Source: Streptomyces sp. NBC_00448 (lineage in GTDB: Bacteria; Actinomycetota; Actinomycetes; Streptomycetales; Streptomycetaceae). Taken from it: a stretch of DNA of 64,000 bases. The stretch covers positions 8,611,501-8,675,500 of the forward strand of contig NZ_CP107913.1 of the NCBI RefSeq assembly GCF_036014115.1. Reading direction: 5' to 3'. Within the stretch, counting starts at the first letter, position 1, and each line of letters starts with the position of its first letter. The position numbers and the translations under genes were made by a program. The notes beneath the pieces are model-generated. The model made no database searches and had not been told where the DNA came from. It saw only the letters and a program-made list of their open reading frames with translations. Below are positions 33,053 to 46,388 of the stretch, piece by piece.

Positions 33053-33209
33053 AGCCCGGCCCGTGCCGGGTGCCTGGCGGCCCCTGGGCGGCCCCTCTCC
33101 GGGGCCAGGGTGCCCTTCGCGGGCGGCGGCCACCCCCGAGGGGCGCTCGGCCGCACGGGAGGGTGGCGGATGGGACCGTTATCATCGAGGGGAGGAGCGG
33201 AAGGGGCCC

Positions 33210-34241
33210 ATGGAGAAGCAGAGCGGGCGCGAGAGCGTACGGCCGCCGGGGATGACGGACGTCGCGCGGGTCGCGGGAGTGTCCGCGCAGACGGTCTCCC
33301 GGGCGCTGGCCGGGCACCCTAACGTGCAGGAGAAGACCCGGGCGAAGGTGCTGGCCGCGGTGGAGCAGCTCGGCTACCGGCGGAACAACGCCGCCCGCAT
33401 GCTCTCCTCGGGCCGCAGCCGCACCATCGGCGTGGTCACCCTGCAGACCAGCTTCTACTCGCGTACCGCGCTCACCTCGGGGATCGAGCACGCCGCGCAG
33501 GCCGCCGGGTACGCGGTGAGCACCGCCACCACCGCGTCGCTGGACACCTCCGCGATCGAGGGTGCGCTGCAGCGGCTGGCCGACCAGCACGTGGAGGGCG
33601 TGATCCTCGCGGTGCCCCTCATCCATGTCTCGCGGCAGATCGAGCAGTTGACCGGTGCGGTGCCCACCATCACCATCGACGGCTCGCGCACCTCGGCGAC
33701 TGAGGTGGTCGCCGTCGACCAGTCGCTCGCCGCGCGGCTCGCGACGCGGCACCTGCTCGACCTGGGCCACGAGACGGTGTGGCACGTGTCCGGGCCCGGG
33801 CAGTGGCTGGACGCGGCGAGCCGCGCGGCCGGCTGGCGGGCCGAGCTGGAGGCCGCCGGGCGTACGGTCCCGCCGGAGCTGGCGGGGGACTGGTCGCCCG
33901 CGTCCGGCTACCGCAACGGCCTGATCCTGGGCCGCATCCCCGACGTCACCGCGGTGTTCGTGGCGAGCGACGAGATGGCGTTCGGCGTGATCAGGGCGCT
34001 GCACGAACTCGGGCGCGGGGTGCCGGACGACATCTCCGTGGTCGGGGTCGACGACATCGCGCTCGCCGAGTACTGCTCGCCCTCGCTGACCACGGTCGCG
34101 CAGCCGTTCGCTGAGATGGGGGCGCTCGCGGTGGCGCACCTGGTCCGCGCGATCGCCGAGCCGGGCGCCGCTCCCGAACCCGCTTCCGTGGAGCCCACGT
34201 TGGTGGTCCGCGCGAGCACTGCTCCCGTCAGGGTGCGCTGA
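33210..34241 (+). CDS. LacI-family transcriptional regulator
   Basis: A 343-residue regulator with LacI-type HTH (residues 15-57: MTDVARVAGVSAQTVSRAL, then the hinge helix AARMLSSGRS) and a periplasmic-binding-protein-like sensor domain (GVDDIALAEYCSPSLTTV is conserved). The ATG at 33210 follows GGAGGAGCGGAAGGGG; longer upstream frames are rejected. It sits between the divergent GH35 gene and the co-oriented GH101 gene, so it most likely represses both in the absence of a galactoside or GalNAc-containing sugar. A shared 11-base word upstream of both targets (33042 and 34479) is the candidate operator. Confidence 0.92.
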   Translation: MEKQSGRESVRPPGMTDVARVAGVSAQTVSRALAGHPNVQEKTRAKVLAAVEQLGYRRNNAARMLSSGRSRTIGVVTLQTSFYSRTALTSGIEHAAQAAGYAVSTATTASLDTSAIEGALQRLADQHVEGVILAVPLIHVSRQIEQLTGAVPTITIDGSRTSATEVVAVDQSLAARLATRHLLDLGHETVWHVSGPGQWLDAASRAAGWRAELEAAGRTVPPELAGDWSPASGYRNGLILGRIPDVTAVFVASDEMAFGVIRALHELGRGVPDDISVVGVDDIALAEYCSPSLTTVAQPFAEMGALAVAHLVRAIAEPGAAPEPASVEPTLVVRASTAPVRVR

Positions 34242-34269
34242 CCCTCCGGGGTGGTGGGTGCTGTCGGTT

Positions 34270-34405
34270 GAGGGACCACCCGCCGGTGGTGGGTCGGCCG
34301 CGCCGTTCCCCGCGCCCCTTTTGCCGACCTGAGTGCCCCGTCCTGCCCGTCGAGGGACCACCTACCGGTGGTGGGTTACGCGCGCCGTTCCCCGCGCCCC
34401 CTTTC
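34270..34405. repeat. Two-copy intergenic repeat with internal hairpins
   Basis: Two about 53-base copies (34270-34322 and 34352-34405), 82 bases apart, each hold a hairpin (ACCACC-N4-GGTGGT) followed by CGCGCCGTTCCCCGCGCCCC. Similar GTTCCCCGCGCCCC-bearing elements are, from memory, very common between Streptomyces genes. They lie just after the LacI stop and may act as terminators. Confidence 0.65.
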
Positions 34406-34478
34406 CGGCTGGACCGGGTGCTCATCGGGTGTGTGCGGCGATATCAGGCTTGCTCGCTTGGTTCACAGGCTCTGGTGT

Positions 34479-34489
34479 TATCGATGCCA
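34479..34489. promoter_or_regulatory. Candidate LacI-family operator word, copy 2
   Basis: TATCGATGCCA is repeated here, 58 bases upstream of the GH101 start, with CACAGG at 34464-34469. See copy 1 upstream of the GH35 gene. Confidence 0.45.
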
Positions 34490-34546
34490 TCGCGGCTACA
34501 GTCGGCACCACTTTCGGCTCTCTCCCAGCCCTAGGCGGTAGTTGGC

Positions 34547-37500
34547 ATGACCTCGAGCCCACCCCGTTCACCGCGTCGCAGACGTAGCCGGCGGCTTGCG
34601 ACCGCGGTCGCGTTCCTCGCCTCGCTGACGTTGCTGTCGGTCGGCGTGACCCCCGCGCTGGCGGCGGCGCCGGCCGCGCTGGCGGCCGCGGACCCCGGCA
34701 CACCCATCGACCCGGGCCAGTACAGCCTGGTCGGCGCCGACTCGCAGTCGCCGGCGTATCCGGCGCCGCCGGCGCTGGACGGCACCGCGCTCGCGGCGTT
34801 CGACGACGACACCGGCACGCAGTGGACCGTCGCCTACGACGTCGTGAACGGGGCCGGCGTCGCCAAGACGCCGATGCCGCACTGGCTCACCGTCGACGTG
34901 GGCGGGTCGTTCACCCTCACCGGCCTCGACTACTCCGTGAAGAAGCAGGACAACGGCCCGGTCAAGGACTTCAAGGTCTACGTCACCGACGACCCGGCCG
35001 TCGCGAAGGACCCGAAGGGCGACTGGGGCGCACCCGCCGCCACGGGGTCGTTCCACCAGCCCACCGCCGACACCGAGGTGCAGACGGTCGCGTTCGACAA
35101 GCCGGTCAAGGGCCGTTACGTCAGGTTCGAGGCGGACAGCGCGGTCAACGGCAGCGACAACGCGTCCGTCTCCGAGCTGCGGGTGCGCGCGACCGGCGAC
35201 ACCACGCCCGCGCCGGTGACGCCGCCGCCCCCGGCGCACCCCGCCACCCCGGTGACCCTGTCGCGCGGCGGGCTGAAGGTCCAGGTGGCCAAGGAGTTCC
35301 CGCAGGTCGTGTCGTACGTGATGGACGGCGGCACGCTCGGCGGGCAGCCGTCGGTGCTGGACACGTTCGACATCAACGGCAAGGCGCACACCGCGACCAC
35401 CGCGACGCGCGTCACGGGCGACACCGCGACGTACACCTCCACCTTCGCCGACCTGCCGAACGTCACCATCACCTCGGCGATCACCGTGACCGCGAAGAAG
35501 ACCGTGGTGTTCGAGGTGAAGAAGATCGCCGGCAGTGCGGCCCGCACCGTGGACGAGCTGTCGATCCCGGACCAGTCGCTGGTGTCGGTCGACACCTCCG
35601 ACCCGCACGCGAACCTGGCCCGTACCAGGATCTCCACCGACTCCACCACGACCGCCGACCAGTTCATCGCGGTCACCGGTGCCACCACGCCGGACGCGGC
35701 GTCGGTCGGCACCCCCTACGGCTTCGTCGCCGACTCCCGGCTGTCCGCAGGGCTGCTCACCGACGCCACCGACGACGCCGCGCAGGACAACAACGACAAC
35801 GGCAACACCCGGCTCCAGTCGCGGATCGTGGACGCGGGCGGCGGCGCCCGGCGCGCGGAGCTGTCGGTCGGCAACTACACCTACGCGGCCAAGGGCGCGA
35901 CCGACCCGCGGGTGGCGACGTACACGCTGCCGAAGACCACGGTGGTGCTGGCCGGGGACGCCAACGGCGACGGCCAGGTGACCTGGGAGGACGGCGCGAT
36001 CGCCTACCGGAACGCGATGACGCGCCCGCTGGGCGCGGACCGGGTCCCGGAACGCGTGGTGCAGCACATCCCGTTCAACTTCGCCAGCGAGGCGACCAAC
36101 CCGTTCCTGAAGACGCTCGACAACGTCAAGCGGATCTCGCTCGCCACCGACGACCTCGGCCAGTGGGTGCTGGAGAAGGGCTACGCCAACGAGGGCCACG
36201 ACTCCGGGCACCCGGACTACGGCGGCGACTACAACGTGCGGGCCGGCGGTTTGAGCGACCTCGACCAACTCGCCGCCCAGGGCGCGAAGTACAACGCCGA
36301 CCTGGCCGTGCACGTCAACGTCACCGAGGCGTACCCGCAGGCGAAGCACTTCAGCTCCGGCCTGGTCCAGGGCCAGGTCAACGGCTGGGACTGGCTCAAC
36401 CAGTCGTACCACATCGACCAGCGCACCGACCTGGGCAGCGGCGCGATCCTCGACCGCTTCAAGGAGCTGCGCAAGGAAGCGCCCGGCATCAAGACCGTCT
36501 ACATCGACGCCTACTACTCCAGCGGCTGGCTCGCCGACGAACTCGCCACCCAGTTGCACAAGATGGGCTTCGAGGTCGCCAGCGAGTGGGCGTACAAGTT
36601 CGAGGGCGAGTCGATCTGGTCGCACTGGGCCAGCGACAAGAACTACGGCGGCCCCACCAACAAGGGCATCAACTCCAACATCGTCCGCTTCATCGGCAAC
36701 ACCGACCGTGACGTGTGGAACGTCGACCCGCTGCTCGGCGGCTCCGACATCAAGGAGTTCGAGGGCTGGACCGGCCAGGACGACTGGAACGCCTTCTACA
36801 GCAACATCTTCACCGAGAACCTGCCCACCAAGTTCCTCCAGCACTACCAGGTGACCGGCTGGGACTTCGGGAAGTCCGCCCGGCTCACCGGCGGGGTCGG
36901 CGTCGCGATGACCGACGGGGTGCGGCAGATCACCATGGGCGGCGCCCTCGTCCTGAAGGGCGACAGCTACCTGCTGCCGTGGGGCGAGGCCAAGGGCGGC
37001 GACGGCACCTCCTCGCCGAGCGACGCCGACAAGATGTACGCCTTCAGCGCGTCGGGCGGCACCCACACCTTCGGGCTCACCGCGCAGTTCGCCCGCGACC
37101 GGCACTTCACCCTCTACCGGCTCACCGACACCGGCCGGGTCAAGGCCGCCGACATCACCCCGTCCGGTGGCCAGGTCACCCTGACCACCACCAAGAACCA
37201 GCCGTACGTCCTGGTGCCGACCGGCGGCAAGGCCCCGCACACGGACGTGGACTACGGCCAGGGCAGCGGCCTGTCCGACCCGGGCTTCAACGCGGGCGAC
37301 CTGACCGCCTGGCACCCGACCGGCGGCGCGGCCGTCGCGCGCACCACCAACGGCGACAACGTCGCCCGCCTCGGCACCGGCGCCGCGTCCGGCATCTCCC
37401 AGCAGGTCAAGGGACTGAAGGCCGGGAAGACCTACACGCTCAGCGCCGACGTCGAGATCGCCAAGGGGCAGCGGCGCGCCGTCACCCTCGGCGTCAGCGG

Positions 37501-39118
37501 CGGCAAGCAGCCCGCCGCGAACACCTTCGACACCACACCCGCGCCCAACGAGGTCGCGGCCGACGCCAAGGAGGGGACGTACGCCCAGCGCGCCTCGGTC
37601 ACCTTCACCGCACCGCCCGGCGGCCGGGTCACCGTCGCCATCGGCGCCGCCGCGGGCGACGCGGCGGTCACCCTGGACGACGTGCGGCTGATGGCCGACA
37701 GCACCGTCCCGCTGCCCAAGGCCGGCAGCAAGGCGGACGGCGGCACCCTCGTCGCGAGCGAGGACTTCGAGGGGAACCAGCCCGGCTGGGGCCCCTTCGT
37801 GAAGGGCGACGCGGGAGGCGTCACCGACCCGCGCACCAGCATCAGCGACCTGCACGCGCCCTACAGCCAGAAGACCTGGAAGAACACCTACGCCCCCTAC
37901 AACTCCGGCACCCTCAAGGGTCAGGCGGTGGACGACGTCATCGGCGGCGACCACTCGCTGAAGGCCCACGAGGAGAACACCGGACTGGTCTACCGCACCG
38001 TGCCGGCGACCGTGCCGTTCACCGCCGGGCACCAGTACCGGGTGTCGTTCAGGTACCAGACCAACGTGGACGGGCAGTGGGCCTGGGTGACGGGCGCCGA
38101 CACCGTCGGCGGCGGCAAGGTCACGTCGAAGGACGTCACCCGCGACACCCTCGACCCGGCGCTGGACACCGCCACCTACAGCAAGGACATCGTGGCCGGG
38201 TGCGGTGACACCTGGGTGGGCCTGCGCAAGCTCGGCGGGGCTTCCGGCACGGACTTCGTGCTGGACGACTTCACCGTCACCGACCTCGGCCCCTCGGCCA
38301 CCGGGCCGGCCTGCGCGAGCGTCACGGTGCCGCCCACCGCGGAGTTGAGCCCCGGGGTGCCGAGCGAGTACGCCACCACCTTCACCAACAGCGAGACCAC
38401 CGACGCCACCGGTGTGCGGATGACGCTCGACGGGCTGCCCGCCGGCTGGACCGCCGAAGTGGAGAAGCAGGGCGGCAACGCCTTCGCGGCCGTCAAGCCC
38501 GGCGCGAGCGCGACCACCACCTGGCTGATCACCGCGCCGGCCGGTGCGGCGGGCACCTCGGCGAGCTGGAAGGCCACCGCCTCCTACACCAACGGCGGCG
38601 CCACCAAGACCGTCGCCACCGACGCCAAGGCGACGGTCGCCTCCCGCGCGCTGCTCTCGCCCGGCTCCATGACCGCCACCGCCGACTCCGAGAACCTCTC
38701 CTCCGACCCGACCGAAGGCCCGGTCGCCAACGTGCTCGACGGCGACCCCGGCACCATCTGGCACACCGACTACACCAACTCGGAGGCGCCCTACCCGCAC
38801 TGGGTCACCCTGAAGCTGTCCGGACCCGCCGACGTCGACGGCTTCGGCTACCTCGACCGCCAGAGCGGCGGCCTCAACGGCCGGATCGGTGACTACGAGA
38901 TCGCGGTCTCCGACGACGGCACCACCTGGCAGACCGTCACCCACGGCACCCTCGTGGACTCCCCGCAGACGCAGCAGATCAACTTCACCCCGGTCAGGGC
39001 CTCCTACGTCCGCTTCACCGGGCTGAACGCGCTCAACGGCCTGCCGTTCGCGGCCGCCGCCGAGATGCGGGTCTACGGGTCGTACGCCAACCCGCCGGTG
39101 GGCTACCCGCCGCAGTAG
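34547..39118 (+). CDS. Secreted GH101 endo-alpha-N-acetylgalactosaminidase with CBM32-like modules
   Basis: A 1523-residue secreted enzyme. An Arg-rich, Tat-like signal (RRRRSRRLATAVAFLASL) ends near an ALA-AA cleavage site. An F5/8-type (CBM32-like) domain spans about 55-215, then a supersandwich region, and a TIM barrel (about 510-830) with probable nucleophile Asp654 (VYIDAYYSSGW) and acid/base Glu680 (ASEWAYKFEGE). Further beta-sandwich modules, a NEW3-like domain (about 1260-1360) and a second F5/8 domain (about 1370-1520) follow. A Ca-binding-like loop, GDANGDGQVTWED, lies near 470. The family releases the disaccharide Gal-beta-1,3-GalNAc from mucin-type O-glycans. It follows the LacI gene on the same strand, with repeats and a possible operator between. 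Confidence 0.92.
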   Translation: MTSSPPRSPRRRRSRRLATAVAFLASLTLLSVGVTPALAAAPAALAAADPGTPIDPGQYSLVGADSQSPAYPAPPALDGTALAAFDDDTGTQWTVAYDVVNGAGVAKTPMPHWLTVDVGGSFTLTGLDYSVKKQDNGPVKDFKVYVTDDPAVAKDPKGDWGAPAATGSFHQPTADTEVQTVAFDKPVKGRYVRFEADSAVNGSDNASVSELRVRATGDTTPAPVTPPPPAHPATPVTLSRGGLKVQVAKEFPQVVSYVMDGGTLGGQPSVLDTFDINGKAHTATTATRVTGDTATYTSTFADLPNVTITSAITVTAKKTVVFEVKKIAGSAARTVDELSIPDQSLVSVDTSDPHANLARTRISTDSTTTADQFIAVTGATTPDAASVGTPYGFVADSRLSAGLLTDATDDAAQDNNDNGNTRLQSRIVDAGGGARRAELSVGNYTYAAKGATDPRVATYTLPKTTVVLAGDANGDGQVTWEDGAIAYRNAMTRPLGADRVPERVVQHIPFNFASEATNPFLKTLDNVKRISLATDDLGQWVLEKGYANEGHDSGHPDYGGDYNVRAGGLSDLDQLAAQGAKYNADLAVHVNVTEAYPQAKHFSSGLVQGQVNGWDWLNQSYHIDQRTDLGSGAILDRFKELRKEAPGIKTVYIDAYYSSGWLADELATQLHKMGFEVASEWAYKFEGESIWSHWASDKNYGGPTNKGINSNIVRFIGNTDRDVWNVDPLLGGSDIKEFEGWTGQDDWNAFYSNIFTENLPTKFLQHYQVTGWDFGKSARLTGGVGVAMTDGVRQITMGGALVLKGDSYLLPWGEAKGGDGTSSPSDADKMYAFSASGGTHTFGLTAQFARDRHFTLYRLTDTGRVKAADITPSGGQVTLTTTKNQPYVLVPTGGKAPHTDVDYGQGSGLSDPGFNAGDLTAWHPTGGAAVARTTNGDNVARLGTGAASGISQQVKGLKAGKTYTLSADVEIAKGQRRAVTLGVSGGKQPAANTFDTTPAPNEVAADAKEGTYAQRASVTFTAPPGGRVTVAIGAAAGDAAVTLDDVRLMADSTVPLPKAGSKADGGTLVASEDFEGNQPGWGPFVKGDAGGVTDPRTSISDLHAPYSQKTWKNTYAPYNSGTLKGQAVDDVIGGDHSLKAHEENTGLVYRTVPATVPFTAGHQYRVSFRYQTNVDGQWAWVTGADTVGGGKVTSKDVTRDTLDPALDTATYSKDIVAGCGDTWVGLRKLGGASGTDFVLDDFTVTDLGPSATGPACASVTVPPTAELSPGVPSEYATTFTNSETTDATGVRMTLDGLPAGWTAEVEKQGGNAFAAVKPGASATTTWLITAPAGAAGTSASWKATASYTNGGATKTVATDAKATVASRALLSPGSMTATADSENLSSDPTEGPVANVLDGDPGTIWHTDYTNSEAPYPHWVTLKLSGPADVDGFGYLDRQSGGLNGRIGDYEIAVSDDGTTWQTVTHGTLVDSPQTQQINFTPVRASYVRFTGLNALNGLPFAAAAEMRVYGSYANPPVGYPPQ

Positions 39119-39134
39119 GGCGGACGCACGGAAA

Positions 39135-39172
39135 CCGGGGTGGCCGCTCTTCACGGAGAGCGGCCACCCCGG
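39135..39172. terminator. Strong bidirectional terminator
   Basis: A perfect 16-bp stem (CCGGGGTGGCCGCTCT with its complement) and 6-base loop separate GH101 from the converging MauE-like gene. Confidence 0.85.
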
Positions 39173-39230
39173 GCGCGGTTCCGGCAGCCGCGGTTCGCCC
39201 GGGGCGCGGGTCCCGCGAGGGCGGGCCGGG

Positions 39231-40115
39231 TCAGGCCATCCGCAGCGGCTTGTGCAGCCCGGACAGCTCCAGCAGGTCCACCGGCACGACCTCCTGGGTG
39301 CGGTCGTCGATCACCGACACCCGCACCGCGGGGCTCGGGTTCGCGTCCCTGGTCGCCTGGTCGTCCAGCGCGAACAGCACGTTCACCGGCCGCGCGCCGC
39401 CCGCGTCGTGGTGCACGCCGGCGAACCGCAGCACCCGCCAGCCCTCGTCGTCCCAGGAGTCCAGGAGCGCGGAACGGACGATCGGCGCCGACGCCTGCCA
39501 GGCGAGCGAGCGCTCCAGCAGTTCCACCGACGCCTCGACGGGCACCCAGCCGCGCGGGCCGGCCGGCAGCGGAGTGCCGAAGACCCGCAGCCGCAGCCGC
39601 CGCAGCGGCATCCACACCCGGTCCAGGTCGGTGGACAGGGCGAGCAGGCCCGCCGCGGCCACCGCGGCCACCAGCACCGACCAGCCCGGGTCCCGGGCCA
39701 GCCGCGACCACCAGGCGGTGCCCGCGAAGGCCGCGGCCACCCCGCCGGCCAGCACCGCGCCGGCCCGCAGGAACGAGCGCACGCCGATCGGACCCTCGTC
39801 ACGGGCGCTGCAACCGCAGGAGGACTGCGGCGCGGTCGCCTTCGCATAGCCGAGGTAGCCGGTGAAGCCCGCCCCGAGCAGCGCGGTGGCCGCGCCGGGC
39901 AGGAGCGTGCCGGGGGCGGCCAGCAGGCCCGCGGCCACCACGAGTTCGACGGCCCCCACCGCGCGCAGCGCGAACGCCGCCCGGTGGCCGTTGCCGAGCA
40001 CCCGCACGAGTACGGTGTTCGCCGCCACCTGCGCGGTGCGCCGGCCCAGCAGCTTGGCCGCGCCGCTCACCGCGAGCAGCACACCGCACACCAGGGGAGC
40101 GAGGTCGAGGATCAT
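39231..40115 (-). CDS. MauE/DoxX-like redox-associated membrane protein
   Basis: About 294 residues. The first 190 hold four to five hydrophobic segments resembling the MauE/DoxX family (MILDLAPLVCGVLLAVSGAAK), with a Cys pair in SSCGCSARD between helices; the remainder is a soluble region of unknown fold. MauE-type proteins are thought to support disulfide formation in Cys-rich exported partners, as in methylamine dehydrogenase. The ATG at 40115 has GAGGAG at good spacing and lies 11 bases after the upstream stop, so this is the last gene of a three-gene operon whose first product has 16 cysteines. That context argues for a disulfide role. No methylamine dehydrogenase subunits are nearby. 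Confidence 0.8.
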   Translation of the reverse strand: MILDLAPLVCGVLLAVSGAAKLLGRRTAQVAANTVLVRVLGNGHRAAFALRAVGAVELVVAAGLLAAPGTLLPGAATALLGAGFTGYLGYAKATAPQSSCGCSARDEGPIGVRSFLRAGAVLAGGVAAAFAGTAWWSRLARDPGWSVLVAAVAAAGLLALSTDLDRVWMPLRRLRLRVFGTPLPAGPRGWVPVEASVELLERSLAWQASAPIVRSALLDSWDDEGWRVLRFAGVHHDAGGARPVNVLFALDDQATRDANPSPAVRVSVIDDRTQEVVPVDLLELSGLHKPLRMA

Positions 40116-40126
40116 CGCGCCGCTCC

Positions 40127-40759
40127 TCAATGGCCGACCGTGACGCGGGCGATGTCCACCGAGTCGTCCGCGGGCCGCCAGGCGCCGAGCACCTGCGCCG
40201 ACTGCCCGATCCGCACCCGGGACAGGTCCGGTGTGAGCGACCCGCCGAGGTAGGACGCGGTGGTCGTCCGGGGCACGATCCGGCCCACCACGGCGTGGTT
40301 GCCGTCGCCGTGCGTGAGGTGCAGGCGGTCCTTGGCGATGCCCCGGATCGTGCAGAACAGGTTCACGATGTTCACCCACACCGCGTCGGCGGCGATGGTG
40401 CCGTCGGGCATGTCGACGCCCCGCGCGTACAGGCCGTCGCCGACCTCGATCGCGTCGGCGGTGGTGGTGTGCAGCTTCCAGACGCTGGTGGCGTTGGTGA
40501 GCTGGATCAGGTGCCGGTCGCCGTACGAGCCGGCGACTTCGAGCACGGTGCCCTTGATGGCGGTGATTCGTCCCTCGGCGAACGCCGACTTGGCGATCGC
40601 GGGGTCGAGGGAGGGGGACGGCGCGGCGAACGCGGCGTCCGCGTCGAGTCCACCGAGCGCGGAGGCGCCCACGATGGTGGCGCCGCCGAGCGCGGCGGTG
40701 GTCAGGAAGCGCCTGCGGTCGAACCCGGAACGGGCCCTGGGGTCCTGGCGGTTGCTCAT
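40127..40759 (-). CDS. Tat-exported protein of unknown function
   Basis: A 210-residue protein with a clear twin-arginine signal (FDRRRFLTTAALGGATIVG), then an Ala-rich cleavage region ending near DADAAFA. The mature part is beta-rich and contains two similar blocks (about RITAIKGTVLEVAG and HAVVGRIVPRT), perhaps OB-like folds of the DUF5666 type; I cannot name a family with confidence. The ATG has a good AGGAGG site. It lies 26 bases after the Cys-rich gene and 11 before the MauE-like gene. Because the Cys-rich protein has no signal of its own, this protein may carry it across the membrane; that is inference. Confidence 0.8.
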   Translation of the reverse strand: MSNRQDPRARSGFDRRRFLTTAALGGATIVGASALGGLDADAAFAAPSPSLDPAIAKSAFAEGRITAIKGTVLEVAGSYGDRHLIQLTNATSVWKLHTTTADAIEVGDGLYARGVDMPDGTIAADAVWVNIVNLFCTIRGIAKDRLHLTHGDGNHAVVGRIVPRTTTASYLGGSLTPDLSRVRIGQSAQVLGAWRPADDSVDIARVTVGH

Positions 40760-40785
40760 GTCGGTGCTCCTCCTGCCGGGTCGGG

Positions 40786-41208
40786 TCACTCGTAGATGTA
40801 GACCGGCAGCAGGCCGGAGCTGAGACTGCCGATCGCGGAGAAGGCCGCCGGGGTCAGGTCGATCACGCGGTTGGTGCGGCAGGCGCCGTTGCAGCAGGTG
40901 GCCTCGCCGCAGAAGCTGTGGGTGCTCGGGCCGCAGTCGGAGATCGTGACGCAGACCTGGGCGCCGGAGCACTGGTGCTTGACGTTCATCACCGAACCGC
41001 AGCCGCGCTGCGGAAGGCCCTCGCCGCACAGGTCGGGCCGGGTGATGTTGAAGCACGCCTGGCTGGCGTAGGGCCAGGCGGCCTGGTTGGAGCTGGACTG
41101 GCAGGTGCCGCAGGCGCCGGTGCCGGCGCTGCCGCAGGGGCCCCAGGAGCTGCCGCAGCAGAACCAGGAGGTCTCACCTGCCCAGAGGCTGGTCGATCCG
41201 CAAGCCAT
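40786..41208 (-). CDS. Small protein with 16 cysteines and an RlpA/barwin-like double-psi beta-barrel
   Basis: A 140-residue protein with cysteines at 3, 17, 18, 25, 33, 36, 52, 61, 70, 80, 86, 92, 100, 105, 106 and 110. The C-terminal half matches the double-psi beta-barrel of RlpA, expansin and barwin proteins: VCVTISDCGP corresponds to the usual DRGP motif with Cys replacing Arg, and RVIDLTPAAFSAIG follows. The N-terminus (MACGSTSLWAGETSWFCCG) is Gly/Cys-rich and not a signal peptide. The ATG is preceded by GAAGGGAA. The even Cys number suggests up to eight disulfides, so the protein is probably extracytoplasmic despite lacking a signal. It is the first gene of an operon with a Tat protein and a MauE-like protein. 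Cell-wall binding is a guess from the fold. Confidence 0.82.
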   Translation of the reverse strand: MACGSTSLWAGETSWFCCGSSWGPCGSAGTGACGTCQSSSNQAAWPYASQACFNITRPDLCGEGLPQRGCGSVMNVKHQCSGAQVCVTISDCGPSTHSFCGEATCCNGACRTNRVIDLTPAAFSAIGSLSSGLLPVYIYE

Positions 41209-41304
41209 GTCGGGTTCCCTTCGCTGATGTCGAAATGTCGAGATGTCCTGTGCATGACAACTCGGGATACGGGGTGGGGTTCGCGGGAGTTCGGGAGGAG
41301 TTCA

Positions 41305-41440
41305 GGGTGCGACGTACGGGGTGCGATGCGCGGGGTGTGACGTACGGGGTGCGATGCGCGGGGTGCGGCGTACGAGGTGCGACGTGCGAAACGCGGTCTG
41401 CGACGTACGGTCTGCGACGTGCCCGGGGTGTGGCGTGCCC
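41305..41440. repeat. Tandem repeat with 28-base period
   Basis: Units begin at 41311, 41339 and 41367, the first two almost identical (GACGTACGGGGTGCGATGCG and onward), built from a shorter GTRCG word. A pair of related 14-base units follows at 41397-41424. It lies upstream of the Cys-rich gene, in its divergent region with the AraC gene. Confidence 0.85.
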
Positions 41441-41567
41441 GCGGTGTCTCGTGGAGCCGCACGCGACGCGGCGCTGCGCGCGTGGGCCCCGGGATCGGGC
41501 GCCTCCGGCTGTGCCGGGTGGGGACGTTGGGGCTGCAGTGCGGTGGGGCACGGCCATGATGCGCGCT

Positions 41568-41603
41568 TCTACGCGCGTCCGCCAGAGGGCGGACGCGCGT
41601 AGA
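41568..41603. promoter_or_regulatory. Perfect 16-bp inverted repeat
   Basis: TCTACGCGCGTCCGCC, loop AGAG, then the exact complement. It stands about 85 bases upstream of the AraC start, in the divergent region. It may be a terminator-like barrier or an operator; no U-tract follows. Confidence 0.75.
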
Positions 41604-41687
41604 TGGTTTCCCGGTGCACCGACGGTGGCCGGAATCGTCATAACCCTGTCCTTGCCGCCATTCCCGGCCCACGCCCAGGATGGTGAC

Positions 41688-42761
41688 GTGACCAGCCGCC
41701 GCATCGTCTTCGCCGTCTACCCGGACTTCCAGATCCTGGATCTGACCGGGCCGCACGAGGTGTTCACGAGCGCCGGACGGATAGCCGCCGCGGCGGGCGG
41801 AGGGGCGGCGGACCCCCGCGTGGGTGACGGCGCGGACCGGACGGTGATCGAGGTCGTGGCCGCCGGGGCCGGCCCGGTCGCGTCGAGCGGCGGCCTCGCG
41901 GTGACCCCGACGCTGCCCGCCGCGCGAGCCGGCGGCCCGGTGGACACGCTCGTCGCGGTCGGCGGACCCGGTGTCCGACGAGCCTGCCGGGAAAGGGAGT
42001 TCGTCGAGTGGTTCGCGGCCACCGCGCGCACCGCCCGGCGTACCGCGTCCGTGTGCAGCGGCGCCTTCCTGCTCGCCGAGGCCGGGCTGCTCGACGGGCG
42101 CCGGGCCGTCACCCACTGGTCGGTCTGCGCCGAACTGGCCGAGCGCTACCCGGCCGTCACGGTCGACCCCGACCCGATCTTCGTCCGCGACGGCGACGTG
42201 TGGACGTCGGCCGGGGTCACCGCGGGCATCGACCTCGCGCTCGCCATGGTCGAGGCGGACCACGGCCCCGACGTGTCCAGGACGATCGCCCGTCACCTGG
42301 TGATGTTCGTGCAACGCCCGGGCGGGCAGGCCCAGTTCAGTACCCAGCTCGCGGCGCAGCGCCCGGACAGGTCGCCGCTGCGGGAGGTGCTCGACTGGAT
42401 CGCGGACCACCTCTGCGACGACCTCGCGGTGCCCGCGCTCGCCGCCCGCGCCGGGATGAGCGAGCGCAACTTCACCCGCGTCTTCCGCGCCGAGACCGGC
42501 CGCACCCCGGGGGCGTACGTCGAGGGCGCCCGGATCGAGGCCGCGCGCCGGCTGCTGGAGTCCACCGGCGCCACGCTCGACGGCGTGGCCCGCAGATGCG
42601 GATTCGGCACGGTCGAGACGCTGCACCGCAGCTTCAAGCGGCGGGTCCGGGTCACCCCGGGGGAGTACCGACGGCACTTCTCCGCGCCCGCGCCGGCGCT
42701 CACCCCCGTACTCGCCCCCGCGACCGCGGGCCCGGCCGCGGTCGCCGAACCGCCCCGGTAG
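41688..42761 (+). CDS. GlxA-type AraC regulator with DJ-1/PfpI domain
   Basis: A 357-residue protein. The N-terminal DJ-1/PfpI-like domain (about 1-190) retains a cysteine in the nucleophile elbow (VCSGAFLLAEAGLLDG). The C-terminal AraC domain (about 225-330) has two HTHs (LAARAGMSERNFTRVFRAET and DGVARRCGFGTVETLHRSF). The GTG at 41688 is chosen because it begins directly at the domain (VTSRRIVFAVYPDF); the frame is open upstream through the tandem repeats but has no matching homology. The next gene encodes a catalytic-type DJ-1/PfpI protein with 225 bases between, a common pairing in which the regulator controls its paralogue. Confidence 0.9.
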   Translation: MTSRRIVFAVYPDFQILDLTGPHEVFTSAGRIAAAAGGGAADPRVGDGADRTVIEVVAAGAGPVASSGGLAVTPTLPAARAGGPVDTLVAVGGPGVRRACREREFVEWFAATARTARRTASVCSGAFLLAEAGLLDGRRAVTHWSVCAELAERYPAVTVDPDPIFVRDGDVWTSAGVTAGIDLALAMVEADHGPDVSRTIARHLVMFVQRPGGQAQFSTQLAAQRPDRSPLREVLDWIADHLCDDLAVPALAARAGMSERNFTRVFRAETGRTPGAYVEGARIEAARRLLESTGATLDGVARRCGFGTVETLHRSFKRRVRVTPGEYRRHFSAPAPALTPVLAPATAGPAAVAEPPR

Positions 42762-42986
42762 CCGGCCGGATCGGTGCCCTGGGCGCCTTCCGGCCACTCG
42801 CCCGGGCTCGGCGTACCCACGGGACCCCTGACCCCCAACTGCCCCTTTTCTGCCCAGGAGTCGATGAACCGACCGCATATCAGGTCGACAAACCGACACG
42901 CCCGTACAGCGACACGTACCGGCCCTCAAGGGTCCGGAACGGCGTCGGACACGCCCGAAAACGATCACTCCCGAAAGGTTCCGCCC

Positions 42987-43607
42987 GTGCGAATCGTCGT
43001 TCCGGTCTTCGACGGCTTCACCTCGCTCGACGCCATCGGCCCCTACGAGTTGCTGCGGATGCTGCCCGGAGCGGAGGTGGTCTTCGCCGCGCGGTCCACC
43101 GCCCCGGTCACCGATGACGCCGGCTGGCTGACCGTGATCCCGTCCGCCACGCTCGACGCGACGGCGTCGGCCGACGTGCTGCTCGTGCCCGGCGGCCCCG
43201 GCGCGTCCCGCAACCTCGGCAACGAGGCGCTGCTGGAGTGGATTCGCCGCATCCACGCCACCACCCGGTGGACCACGTCGGTGTGCACCGGCTCGCTGCT
43301 GCTGGGCGCCGCCGGGCTGCTGGACGGGCTGACGGCCACCACGCACTGGAGCGCGGCCGGGAAACTGGCCTCCTTCGGCGCCACCTACACCGAGCAGCGG
43401 GTGGTGGAGCAGCCCGGGGGAATCATCACCTCGGCGGGCGTCTCCTCCGGGATCGACATGGCGCTGCGGCTCGCCGAACTCGCCGCGGGCCGGGTCGCCG
43501 CCGAGGCGTTCCAGCTCGCCATCGAGTACGACCCGCAGCCGCCGTTCGACTCCGGCGCGCTGTCCAAGGCGTCCCAGGAGGCGAAGGACTACCTCGCGGC
43601 GCGCTGA
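42987..43607 (+). CDS. DJ-1/PfpI family protein (isonitrile hydratase-like)
   Basis: A 206-residue DJ-1/PfpI protein beginning VRIVVPVFDGFTSLDAIGP. The nucleophile Cys lies in SVCTGSLLLGAAGLLDG, followed by TTHW, and ITSAGVSSGIDMALRL is typical of the InhA-like branch. The GTG start has GAAAGG eight bases upstream; a longer frame from 42774 is rejected as low-complexity. It may be an isonitrile hydratase or another cofactor-free hydrolase; the substrate cannot be told. It follows a GlxA-type regulator and overlaps the end of the converging Lrp gene by 19 bases. Confidence 0.88.
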   Translation: MRIVVPVFDGFTSLDAIGPYELLRMLPGAEVVFAARSTAPVTDDAGWLTVIPSATLDATASADVLLVPGGPGASRNLGNEALLEWIRRIHATTRWTTSVCTGSLLLGAAGLLDGLTATTHWSAAGKLASFGATYTEQRVVEQPGGIITSAGVSSGIDMALRLAELAAGRVAAEAFQLAIEYDPQPPFDSGALSKASQEAKDYLAAR

Positions 43608-44338
43608 GCCGCGGGCGCGTGGGACGCTGCCCCGCCGTGCCACCCGCCCTGCGGGCGCGGCGCCGATGGGGCACCGGGTGCGGGGGAGGCGGAGCGCGCG
43701 GCCGGAGCGGAGGCCGACGGGCCCGCGCCCTCGTCCGTAGCTGCGTTCGTACCTGCGTCCGTAGCCGGACCCTCGTCCGTACCCGGGTCCGGCTCCCGAT
43801 CGGCGTCGGACCCCGCCCCGTCCGCCTCCTGCCCCTCCGGCAGCCGCGGTTCGGCGGCCCGCAGCCGTTCGGCCGCCCGCTCCACCGTCTCCACCAGCGG
43901 CAGCACCCGCTCGGCCACGCGCTCCCGCAACGCGATCTCGGTGCGGGTCCTGACCACCCCCGGCAGCCGTATCAGCCGCTGGATGATGTCCTCCAGGTGC
44001 GCGTTGTCGCGGGCCACGACCCGGGCCAGCAGGTCGCCGCCGCCGGTGATCGAGAACGCCTCGATGATCTCGGCCACCACCGCCAACTCGGAGCCGATCT
44101 CGTCGAGATGGCCCTGCGCGACCTCGATCCGGACGAACGCCAGCACCGGGTGGCCGAGGGCCGCGGGCGAGACCCGCGGACCGGCGGTGGTGATCACGCC
44201 GTCGCGCTCCATGCGGTCCAGCCGCGCCTGGAGGGTGCCGCGGGCGACGCCGAGGATACGGGCGTACTCGCGGACGCTGGTACGCGGCTGCTGAAGGAGC
44301 AGCCGCAGGATACGGGCGTCCAGGGCGTCGACGGGCAT
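43589..44338 (-). CDS. Lrp/AsnC family transcriptional regulator with long disordered tail
   Basis: A 249-residue protein. Residues 1-55 form an Lrp winged helix (LDARILRLLLQQPRTSVREY) and 60-145 the ligand-binding RAM domain (GGGDLLARVVARDNAHLEDI). The last about 90 residues are Ala/Pro/Asp-rich and unlike the family, which usually ends near 150. The gene's 3' end overlaps the DJ-1/PfpI gene on the other strand by 19 bases. No amino-acid gene is adjacent, so the effector is unknown. Confidence 0.88.
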   Translation of the reverse strand: MPVDALDARILRLLLQQPRTSVREYARILGVARGTLQARLDRMERDGVITTAGPRVSPAALGHPVLAFVRIEVAQGHLDEIGSELAVVAEIIEAFSITGGGDLLARVVARDNAHLEDIIQRLIRLPGVVRTRTEIALRERVAERVLPLVETVERAAERLRAAEPRLPEGQEADGAGSDADREPDPGTDEGPATDAGTNAATDEGAGPSASAPAARSASPAPGAPSAPRPQGGWHGGAASHAPAAQRAAR

Positions 44339-44588
44339 GGGCCGGTGGTCCCCTCACGGCTGTGTTCTTGGCATATTCACCGTACCGACGGGTCGTCGGC
44401 CGACGATCATTTCGAGCCACCGCCATGGCCGACGGAAAAGTCGCGCCGGAAGGGAACCGGCGGACCACCGGCGGAATCTTCATATTCACGGGCACGAACC
44501 GGGCCGTGCGCATAGGCTCCGGCCACACCCGGGCGCGATCACGCGCGCCCGGCGATGTCGACGGTGACCGAGGGTGGGGGAGTTCGCG

Positions 44589-46388
44589 GTGTCTTGGGAT
44601 GGGCAGAACGGGGCCGGTGGCGGCGGTGGTTACGGTGCGCCGCCACCCGGCGGCGCGGGAGGCCCCGGTGGTCCGGGCGGTCCCGGCAACCCGCCGGGAA
44701 GCGGCTACGGCAGCCCCGGCGGCTACGGCGCGCCGCCACCCGTCCCGCCGGTCCCGCCGGCTCCGCCCACCGCCGGCGGCTACGGTGGCTACGGCGCCCC
44801 GGCGGGCGGCTTCGGCCCGCCCGGCAGTGGCCCCGGCGGATATCCGCCACCCCCGCCGCCCGCGCCCCCCGCCGCGCCCAAACCGCCCGCCGACGCGCTG
44901 CGAGCCGTCGCCGTGGGGCTGCTCAACCTCAGCGGCCTCGGCCTCGGTTACGCCTTCATGCGCCGCTGGCTGGGCCTGGCGATCTGCCTGATCGCCACCG
45001 CCGCGCTGGTGGTCGTCGCGCTGCCGGCCAAGCCGGACGGCGTCTCCGGCGGCGTCCTCGCCGGCTATCTGGCCTTCCTGGTGCTGGCCGCCGCACACGG
45101 CGCGTGGCGCGGCCTGCGCACCCGCCTGTCGTGGCCGCCGCTCGCACCGGTCGCGGTCCTGGTCGGCCTGGTGCTGCTGGCCGTGCCGGCCGGCGGCGTG
45201 GTCCTCTACGACAACGCACGGGACAACGCGACGCAGAAGATGCTGCTGGACCGCCTCGCCGCGGCCGACAGCAAGGTGACCGCCGCCAAGGGCAAGGACT
45301 TCTCGTCCGCCCAGCCCGCGTACAAGTCGGCCCTCGCCTCCTACGGCGACCTCAAGAAGCACCACTCCGGCTCCAAGGCCGCCAAGTTGGTGCCCGACCG
45401 GCTGCAGACGTTCTACTCGACGGTCGCCGCGCCGTTCGACCAGCAGCAGTACTGCGACGCCATACCCCCGCTGAAGTACCTGCGCACCGTGCCCGACTCG
45501 TTCGGCAAGGACGGCGTCGGCTCGCTGGCCACCTGGCCCGACGACAAGCTGGCGACGTCGCTGTACGAGTGCGGGGTCGCCGACCTGCAGAGCACCGACC
45601 AGTCCACCTCCTCCGGCGGCGACGAGAACGACCTGGGCGAACTGCTCACCACCTTCCCGCAGTCGCCGCAGGCCGCGAAGGTGGAACCGGCGGTCAGCTC
45701 CACCATCGACAAGGCGGCCAAGGCGATCGGCGGCAGCGACCCCTGCGGCGCCACCCAGAAGGTCACCGGCCTCGGCTCCTTCGCCACCACCCTCTCCGGC
45801 AAGGCGCACGGCAGCGCCGCGGCGGCCCTGGCCAAGGACTCCTCGCGTGCAGGGAGCCATGTGGAGTCGGGTACGTACGCGTGCGGCGTGCACCAGTACA
45901 AGTCCGGTGACTTCGACACGGCGCTCACCACGATGAACGACTTCACCGGCAAGTACCCGCACGACAAGAACAACGCGCTGGCCCACAAGTTCGCCATCGC
46001 CGCGGAGATCGCCAAGGAGGAGGCCCCGGCCGGCAAGCACGTGCCCACGATGGCCTCCGGCGGGAGCATCAAACTGATCGTCAGCAACGACAGCCCTGAC
46101 CCGGTGCAGATCCTCTACACCGGCAAGGTCACCGGCAGCTTCACCCTCAAGGCGTGCGGGAGTTGCCACGCCTACTCCAGTGAGGCCGGCGCGCAGGGCA
46201 GCGCCTGCCAGGCCAGCGGCAAGCACTACCCGGAGAAGACCATCTACCTGCCGACCGGCACCGTCTACTTCCTGCACAAGCCGTCGGGCGATTCGGGCGC
46301 CACCTCGCACGCGGACTCCGAGACGCTGCGTTCGGGCAGTTACTACACGGACTGCGCCTACACCGTGTCGTCCTACGGCGGTTTCTGA
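44589..46388 (+). CDS. Gly/Pro-rich membrane protein of unknown function
   Basis: About 599 residues. The first 95 are Gly/Pro/Tyr repeats (GGYGAPPP-type), then four hydrophobic segments (about 105-215: YAFMRRWLGLAICLIATAA and similar), then a large outward domain with paired cysteines and a TPR-like stretch (YKSGDFDTALTTMNDFTGKY). The C-terminal 90 residues look like a beta-sandwich with several Cys (LKACGSCHAY). The GTG at 44589 has GGGGGAG at good spacing; a GTG at 44574 is possible. Function is unknown; the layout suggests a surface or secretion-linked protein. It is monocistronic. Confidence 0.8.
   Translation: MSWDGQNGAGGGGGYGAPPPGGAGGPGGPGGPGNPPGSGYGSPGGYGAPPPVPPVPPAPPTAGGYGGYGAPAGGFGPPGSGPGGYPPPPPPAPPAAPKPPADALRAVAVGLLNLSGLGLGYAFMRRWLGLAICLIATAALVVVALPAKPDGVSGGVLAGYLAFLVLAAAHGAWRGLRTRLSWPPLAPVAVLVGLVLLAVPAGGVVLYDNARDNATQKMLLDRLAAADSKVTAAKGKDFSSAQPAYKSALASYGDLKKHHSGSKAAKLVPDRLQTFYSTVAAPFDQQQYCDAIPPLKYLRTVPDSFGKDGVGSLATWPDDKLATSLYECGVADLQSTDQSTSSGGDENDLGELLTTFPQSPQAAKVEPAVSSTIDKAAKAIGGSDPCGATQKVTGLGSFATTLSGKAHGSAAAALAKDSSRAGSHVESGTYACGVHQYKSGDFDTALTTMNDFTGKYPHDKNNALAHKFAIAAEIAKEEAPAGKHVPTMASGGSIKLIVSNDSPDPVQILYTGKVTGSFTLKACGSCHAYSSEAGAQGSACQASGKHYPEKTIYLPTGTVYFLHKPSGDSGATSHADSETLRSGSYYTDCAYTVSSYGGF

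Follow-up and report, generated by a model that had tools for sequence, protein, structure and literature searches.

How would a protein with 16 cysteines and no signal peptide leave a bacterial cell, and on which side of the membrane would its disulfides be formed? The question is raised by three consecutive genes of Streptomyces sp. NBC_00448, found in a stretch of 64,000 nucleotides (positions 8,611,501 to 8,675,500 of contig NZ_CP107913.1; hereafter the window) that is part of a single-contig 9.65-Mb genome. The original prediction, made from the sequence alone, described a 16-Cys barrel protein, a protein with a twin-arginine translocation (Tat) signal and a MauE-like membrane protein. 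It proposed that the Cys-rich protein travels with its Tat partner and is cross-linked outside. Coordinates and profile matches confirmed the three genes, all on the minus strand. The interpretation as a whole was partly supported: the partnership holds up, and cross-linking outside is now disfavoured. We propose that MauE would oxidise the cargo at the inner face of the membrane and that Tat would then export it on its carrier; taken whole, this reading is about evenly balanced between right and wrong. The features on which the argument relies are as follows.

Positions 41208 to 40786, minus strand: gene 1, leaderless Cys-rich protein with a predicted double-psi beta-barrel (DPBB), 140 codons, 16 Cys.
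Positions 40936 to 40938, minus strand: Asp91 codon of gene 1, invariant in 76 sequences (position computed from the gene coordinates).
Positions 40759 to 40127, minus strand: gene 2, putative Tat-signal carrier, 210 codons, mature part weakly DUF5666-like.
Positions 40622 to 40759, minus strand: Tat signal sequence of gene 2, RR at residues 15-16, AFA-type cleavage-like site at about residues 43-46 (end estimated).
Positions 40115 to 39231, minus strand: gene 3, MauE-family membrane protein of 294 residues with five predicted transmembrane (TM) helices and a C-terminal soluble alpha/beta domain.
Positions 39810 to 39818, minus strand: CGC codons (C100-G101-C102) of gene 3 (position computed from the gene coordinates).

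The intergenic gaps, 26 bp between genes 1 and 2 and 11 bp between genes 2 and 3, are compatible with a single operon. A pattern scan of 84,980 GTDB species genomes gave 79 loci, of which four were short partial matches (L080 to L083) and 75 were full relatives. Their hosts were Streptomyces, Actinacidiphila, Kribbella, Micromonospora, Nonomuraea, Hamadaea and others. Gene 2 followed gene 1 in all 75 relatives and gene 3 came next, in the same order, in 73; the two relatives lacking gene 3 (L039 and L052) stop at contig ends. Other searches, whose species may overlap with these, gave all three genes at 23 of 24 loci, the 24th being the fused form described below. The synteny search proposed in the original prediction thus bore out a dedicated three-gene unit. 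Chance or a pseudo-operon was ruled out by this conservation, and the three genes almost certainly form a genuine, self-contained unit, as judged from their sequences. The flanks of 33 diverse loci were compared: no frame was common to more than five of them, no fourth conserved gene was seen, and a fourth gene was rejected on that count. Distribution is patchy even within the genus (20 of 35 genomes). At least 26 of 200 genomes of the window's family had the unit (20 of them members of the same genus), as did at least six of 394 genomes in a class sample (the fused case included) and at least one of 396 in a phylum sample; only 10 to 20 candidates per genome were scored, which makes these values lower bounds. 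A plasmid origin was rejected. The sole match, NZ_LT559118.1 of Nonomuraea gerenzanensis, is labelled 'plasmid I' in PLSDB, and at 11.85 Mb it was taken as a chromosome. A phage origin was rejected for lack of a phage match; seven loci on viral contigs were found at 35-38% identity, covering part of the barrel.

Gene 1 matched the Pfam family DPBB_1 (PF03330) just above the cut-off (E 9.3e-7; 29.5 bits, cut-off 28.8), and a match at E<=1 was obtained for all 24 relatives scanned. Its AlphaFold2 model had a mean pLDDT (predicted local distance difference test) of 80, with two short segments below 50. The model matched the RlpA-like protein PA4485 (Z 12.1, root-mean-square deviation 2.2, 91 residues); further matches were loosenin, kiwellins and expansins (Z about 8-9) and the Streptomyces papain inhibitor. 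Gene 1 was assigned to the DPBB fold on the predicted model, in line with the RlpA/barwin fold claimed from the sequence. In every one of the 76 sequences the domain motif GE.[ST]WFCC begins 5-18 residues past the start codon chosen. This leaves no space for a signal peptide, as had been claimed. An even count of 16 Cys had also been stressed; it is true of the window's own protein, while across the 76 sequences the total is 16 (52 sequences), 15 (15), 14 (7) or 17 (2). Invariant in all of them are 14 Cys and the residues E12, D91, E102 and D117. When gene 1 is aligned with PA4485, Asp91 falls on the Asp of the motif RINDRGP. The Asp at this position is catalytic in RlpA and expansins. The NCBIfam expansin and rlpA models scored gene 1 far under their cut-offs. 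The protein resembles the RlpA, expansin, barwin and kiwellin barrels in its predicted fold and in the position of Asp91, and differs from them in having 14-16 Cys, no signal peptide, and fixed carrier and oxidase genes. Two stray fragments of gene 1 were seen far from any operon. One, of about 38 codons (L080, 6001-6114, Actinacidiphila guanduensis), is a scrap of the gene next to what is presumably an ABC (ATP-binding cassette) ATPase gene; the other has about 29 codons (G404:C13:104382-104468).

The N-terminus of gene 2 reads MSNRQDPRARSGFDRRRFLTTAALGG. The NCBIfam model TAT_signal_seq (TIGR01409) scored it at 16.7 bits, exactly at the cut-off. The motif RR.[FLVIMA]L was kept in 75 of 75 gene-2 proteins (the gene 2 of L029, which has no start codon, was omitted from the sequence counts). 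It is followed by an uncharged run of 17-33 residues in all 75 and by a cleavage-like site A[FS][AGT] in 74. Gene 2 therefore carries what its sequence identifies as a Tat signal, with twin arginines, h-region and cleavage site, and the prediction was right on this point. Past residue 40, these proteins hold no Cys (61) or one (14). Comparison of gene 2 with solved structures gave weak, implausible matches only.

Evidence that the first two proteins belong together came from another actinobacterial family (f89). There, a protein of 312-349 residues (30 read) combines a gene-2-like domain with a gene-1-like barrel. Alignments of gene 1 (A1), gene 2 (A2) and the fused protein (A4) were compared with hhalign. 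A4 matched A2 from the RR motif onwards (probability 90.9, E 1.1e-6) and matched A1 with probability 70.8 and E 3.8e-5. In a two-protein search by single-sequence hmmsearch, A1 found the fused protein at E 4e-11 and A2 alone was not significant. The fused protein gave a match (E<=1e-6) in at least 189 of 200 f89 genomes, a count that takes any match, including some among the matches listed that cover one part only (such as G984, G961, G1062 and G1063). Among 246 genomes of the class, at least 21 had such a match (nine candidates scored per genome), all 21 in f89; the window's own genome had none. In two genomes (G688 and G850) the fused form is present alongside the split operon. The single chain argues that the domains of genes 1 and 2 belong together. 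Together with the synteny, it makes it very probable that the two proteins are partners, as was originally proposed.

Because gene 1 has no room for a signal in any sequence and gene 2 always keeps its Tat signal, the pair was read as a case of hitchhiking, which is consistent with both synteny and fusion. Gene 1, a compact leaderless barrel, would be the cargo. Gene 2 would be a dedicated carrier; having bound the cargo in the cytoplasm, it would provide the Tat signal, and the pair would be exported folded. Export of the pair by Tat in the window's organism is likely on these grounds. Such export has already been described (PMC4273604, PMC2758597). In Streptomyces, the tyrosinase MelC2 has no signal and hitchhikes via Tat on MelC1, its signal-bearing operon partner (PMC2758597). 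The proteins are unrelated to those studied here; the MelC cargo is a copper enzyme and its system has no membrane oxidase.

The gene 1 protein might instead remain in the cytoplasm, the Tat protein being separate and the operon serving merely to co-regulate the two. The lack of a signal on gene 1 agrees with this, and so does the fused family, which looks cytoplasmic. The fused proteins begin with DRRRxLAAAALG or DRRRLTAALLG, and in 29 of 30 of them RR is followed by just 3-9 uncharged residues; in the 30th this run has 18 residues and is Pro/Gly-rich. With so short a run, they are probably not exported by Tat. There is a parallel in Streptomyces coelicolor, where MelD1 has no Tat motif and MelD2, a paralogue of a member of the Tat-linked pair, is intracellular; other species vary (PMC2758597). 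A cytoplasmic gene 1 protein is nevertheless improbable in our estimate. It would leave the retention of the Tat signal in 75 of 75 gene-2 proteins, and the sharing of one chain by the two domains elsewhere, to be accounted for.

Gene 3 matched the Pfam family MauE (PF07291) well above the cut-off (E 3.9e-13; 50.3 bits, cut-off 27), and 23 of 23 members scanned also matched the family. Its CGC pair is 97-99% conserved, and across 74 sequences no other Cys position reaches 97% conservation. Gene 3 is accordingly classed by sequence as a CxC-bearing MauE-family protein, and the predicted membership of such a protein in the unit is borne out. In the model, TM helices span residues 2-23, 43-66, 71-94, 112-129 and 143-160, and an alpha/beta domain lies at about 193-270. 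A Foldseek search with the whole model as query, not with the C-terminal domain alone, gave no match at E<=0.001, and a profile search against PDB sequences gave no match. The CxC loop follows TM3 and the C-terminal domain follows TM5, which puts both on one side of the membrane. Positive charges gather in the TM1-TM2 loop, in the CxC loop and just after TM5, and are few in the other loops. The balance of K+R in loop 1, the CxC loop and the segment after TM5 favours an inward CxC loop in 71 of 71 operon MauE proteins. We infer that the CGC loop and the C-terminal domain of gene 3 face the cytoplasm. Since the MauE family is present in all 23 members, the CGC pair is almost invariant and the cargo has 14 invariant Cys, it is quite probable that MauE is the oxidase of the gene 1 protein.

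The side on which oxidation would occur was the point of difference with the original prediction, according to which the reduced Cys-rich protein leaves with its Tat partner and an outward-facing MauE then forms the disulfides. The cell exterior is generally oxidising, and outward MauE proteins do seem to exist: those linked to DsbA, described below, have the charge pattern of an outward CxC loop in 28 of 28 cases from one set. The operon proteins show the opposite pattern in 71 of 71. The fused relatives also speak for the inside. MauE adjoins the fused gene at 30 of 30 and 18 of 18 loci, which make 47 places, as L291 and L308 are one place (G702); under a stricter rule it was recovered at 45 of the 48 loci. 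These relatives keep the MauE gene without a full Tat signal, which argues that MauE serves a substrate met only inside the cell. The six neighbours of the operon (33063-46385), which a family scan assigned to LacI, GH101 glycosidase, AraC/DJ-1, DJ-1, AsnC and, for one, no family, included no DsbA- or thioredoxin-like protein, no MauD and no dehydrogenase, and no flank frame recurs widely at the 33 loci. Oxidation outside was therefore considered unlikely, though it is the least unlikely of the alternatives.

Inward oxidation ahead of export would work as follows. The gene 1 protein would fold while on its carrier. The inward CxC loop of gene 3 would take electrons from the 14-16 Cys of the gene 1 protein and produce 7-8 disulfides, and the oxidised, disulfide-bonded cargo would be the form accepted by Tat. 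Once outside, the signal would be cut off and the stable barrel would act at or beyond the cell wall. Its role there might be binding to wall or glycan, or a lytic-transglycosylase or expansin-like activity via Asp91. This order of events suits the demand of Tat for folded cargo, and from the sequences we lean slightly towards oxidation preceding export. An engineered likeness exists in Escherichia coli, where Tat did not export a single-chain variable fragment unless disulfides were formed in the cytoplasm by CyDisCo (PMC6708511). CyDisCo is artificial and consists of soluble Erv1p and PDI, whereas here a natural membrane MauE is proposed.

Two other functions could be imagined for the Cys residues. 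The first is metal binding: they would hold Zn, Cu or Fe-S, gene 2 would export a pre-loaded metalloprotein and MauE would take part in redox or metal handling. Tat typically carries cofactor proteins, CxxC and CC pairs are present in gene 1, and the fused form contains CGC..CDRCLEC. Against metal binding, MauE and the DPBB fold suggest disulfides, most of the best fold matches are secreted proteins, which contain disulfides, and gene 1 matched no metal-protein family in Pfam and NCBIfam profile scans. Metal binding was judged to have a small chance only. The second is a RiPP-like cluster (ribosomally synthesised and post-translationally modified peptide), in which gene 1 would be a precursor peptide modified by MauE. 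Three Streptomyces mauE families with precursors of at least eight Cys have been put forward as candidate RiPPs by decRiPPter (PMC7794033). Gene 1 is one conserved folded domain of 140 residues without leader and core parts. No protease, ABC transporter or other exporter was found among the six neighbours, and the flanks of the 33 relatives hold no widely recurring frame. The locus does not look like a RiPP cluster, and this reading is very improbable.

To judge whether this charge pattern carries meaning, an index T was used, defined as K+R in loops 1 and 3 minus K+R in the N-terminus, loop 2 and loop 4. It was designed after the operon charges had been seen, and the split into groups was not blind. 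The phylum set took in every further MauE place that 197 genomes yielded, 79 in number; two MauE reads without CxC were excluded from the T analysis. For the DsbA-linked set, the MauE loci of the window's family were ranked by score and the best 29 taken, so that it is not a random sample. The 28 with CGCFG were used; the 29th (L131) has a MauD-like neighbour, is of the other kind and was dropped. The DsbA query was taken from L124, itself a member of this set. T was nearly two-humped, with one of 128 proteins at 1-2. It was 3 or more in 23 of 23 operon MauE, in 28 of 29 MauE adjoining a Tat-signal Cys-rich gene, in 34 of 48 without such a neighbour detected, and also in 44 of 45 MauE read beside a fused gene. 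Values of 0 or less were found in the remaining 14 of the 48 and in all 28 of the DsbA-linked set. DsbA-like neighbours were present at 28 of 28 loci of that set, at five of the 14 other loci with T<=0 and at none of the 63 with T>=1. Judged by the charges, the DsbA domain lies outside in all 31 cases where an anchor was found. MauD-like neighbours were present at 35 of 63 loci with T>=1, four of 14 with T<=0 (p 0.08, not significant), none of the 28 DsbA-linked loci and none of 20 control regions. Among 35 anchored MauD-like proteins, 23 had more charges after the TM helix, placing the domain inside, four had equal numbers and eight had more before it. MauE appears to occur in two largely self-consistent arrangements, inward and outward. 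In L189, L216 and L220 the MauE frame runs on into a MauD-like part.

An open frame within about 3 kb of MauE was counted as a Tat-signal Cys-rich neighbour if it had a Tat-like signal and six or more Cys in 60 residues. In a trial, this rule was satisfied at eight of 24 phylum loci, two of four further loci, none of 30 loci of the window's family and none of 138 control pieces. It was then satisfied at 29 of 79 MauE loci; among 60 controls, 6.5-kb pieces taken from 20 of the phylum-set genomes, one satisfied it (Fisher 1.3e-7, relatedness not corrected). Of the 79, 54 loci were new to the rule and gave 19 positives, and the 25 seen before gave 10. All positives had T>=1 (29 of 63, against none of 14 at T<=0; p 6e-4), and 27 of the 29 also had a MauD-like gene. 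By eye, the 29 fall into about six sequence kinds (14, 10, 2, 1, 1 and 1) and are therefore not 29 independent events. Pfam gave no informative family for ten of these neighbours, with TAT_signal below the cut-off on one and LGFP on another. One group may resemble the light chain of methylamine dehydrogenase (MADH). Several single loci were recorded. L165 (2555-4136; another genus of the window's family) holds an operon for MauE, a MauD-like thioredoxin and, last, a small Tat-signal Cys-rich protein. L236 (1887-2336) has beside MauE a Tat-signal protein of 150 residues with 22 Cys and no Pfam family. Beside MauE, L226 (3576-5765) and L222 (1565-2887) each encode a large Tat-signal protein, with 36 and 20 Cys respectively; both proteins have long C-terminal parts, repetitive in L226. 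In L163 (2844-4930), a short MauE (NCGCFG) lies directly upstream of a Cys-rich enzyme, which we take to be radical-SAM-like.

These data suggest a wider reading, which we hold tentatively and rate somewhat below an even chance. A large class of MauE, active at the cytoplasmic face, would provide the Tat pathway with its natural step of disulfide formation by oxidising Cys-rich proteins ahead of their export in folded form. The operon of the window would be its three-part form, in which signal, cargo and oxidase are separate proteins. MauE, MauD and a Tat-signal Cys-rich protein would act in the same spirit in other actinobacteria, and the DsbA-linked MauE would have the opposite orientation and work outside.

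A number of observations weigh against inner-face oxidation and Tat export as proposed here. The 34 loci with T>=3 and no detected Tat-signal Cys-rich neighbour show that the charge pattern is not specific to a Tat partner, and in the phylum set the difference in T between loci with and without such a neighbour was borderline (Mann-Whitney p 0.051). The 30 loci of the window's own family, all negative by the rule, are mostly of the DsbA-linked kind. The orientation of gene 3 has the positive-inside rule as its one basis, and MauE and MauD are usually held to act on a periplasmic protein. Some gene 1 sequences have 15 or 17 Cys. The likeness of mature gene 2 to DUF5666 is weak (18 of 24 members, best E 4e-4, below the cut-off). 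In the fused relatives Asp91 is replaced and the barrel may have a cytoplasmic role; as they are probably unexported, they weaken export as the essence of the system everywhere. A 15-residue hydrophobicity score does not part the fused proteins (up to 1.39) from gene 2 (from 1.29, mean 1.58). Finally, the need of Tat for prior disulfides is not absolute, since Tat cargo exported without them is cited by title in the review that reports the CyDisCo result (PMC6708511).

Among the closest known systems are the mau clusters. The light chain of MADH is Tat-exported. Its maturation involves MauE and MauD (PMC7794033), and the likeness to the present unit is that a membrane protein of the MauE family, bearing a CxC loop, is paired with a Cys-rich client. 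Here the client is a DPBB barrel without its own signal, riding on a separate carrier, no MauD was found among the neighbours scanned, and the MauE of gene 3 has an extra C-terminal domain. The locus does not look like a mau-type MADH maturation system: its six neighbours include no thioredoxin or dehydrogenase, and the flanks of the 33 relatives hold no widely recurring frame. The role of MauE itself is called speculated, with no settled mechanism (PMC7794033). Nearest among the matches listed are the decRiPPter families, in which mauE adjoins a gene for a protein of at least eight Cys in Streptomyces. They were interpreted as RiPP precursors, and the passages that describe them mention no Tat partner or barrel (PMC7794033). 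The original statement that no described system of this kind was known stands for the literature matches listed, with the qualification that mauE beside Cys-rich 'precursors' had been reported. Titles and abstract openings of open-licence PMC papers gave, among the matches listed, no description of the three-gene unit or of a cytoplasm-facing MauE, which is weak evidence of novelty. Hitchhiking and MauE maturation are known separately; their combination appears new. If confirmed, an inner-face MauE class for Tat cargo would be new in kind. Tat takes folded proteins out of a cytoplasm that is reducing, and how disulfide-rich proteins can pass through it is a puzzle of long standing, as well as a practical difficulty for protein production. 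If true, a natural system that unites cargo, Tat carrier and membrane oxidase would be answer and tool alike. The prediction that the MauE family is split into inward-facing and outward-facing members is directly testable.

The surroundings of the operon were also inspected. A large secreted-type GH101 endo-alpha-N-acetylgalactosaminidase with carbohydrate-binding domains (34547-39118, plus strand) is convergent with it. On the other side lies a divergent regulator with DJ-1/PfpI and AraC-type domains (41235-42761, plus strand), followed by a DJ-1/PfpI protein (42774-43607, plus strand). GC-rich tandem repeats of 14, 28 and 35 bp (41305-41453) were seen between gene 1 and the divergent gene. 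One further feature was recorded upstream of gene 1.

Positions 41244 to 41260, minus strand: conserved promoter- or operator-like motif TTGTCATGCACAGGACA.

The motif has the form TTGTCATGCAC-N-GG-N-CA and lies 36-52 bp ahead of gene 1. Its 8-mer TTGTCATG was present in 32 of 76 regions upstream of gene 1. The 17-bp motif has one copy in the genome, even when one mismatch is allowed, and is perhaps a promoter or operator specific to this operon.

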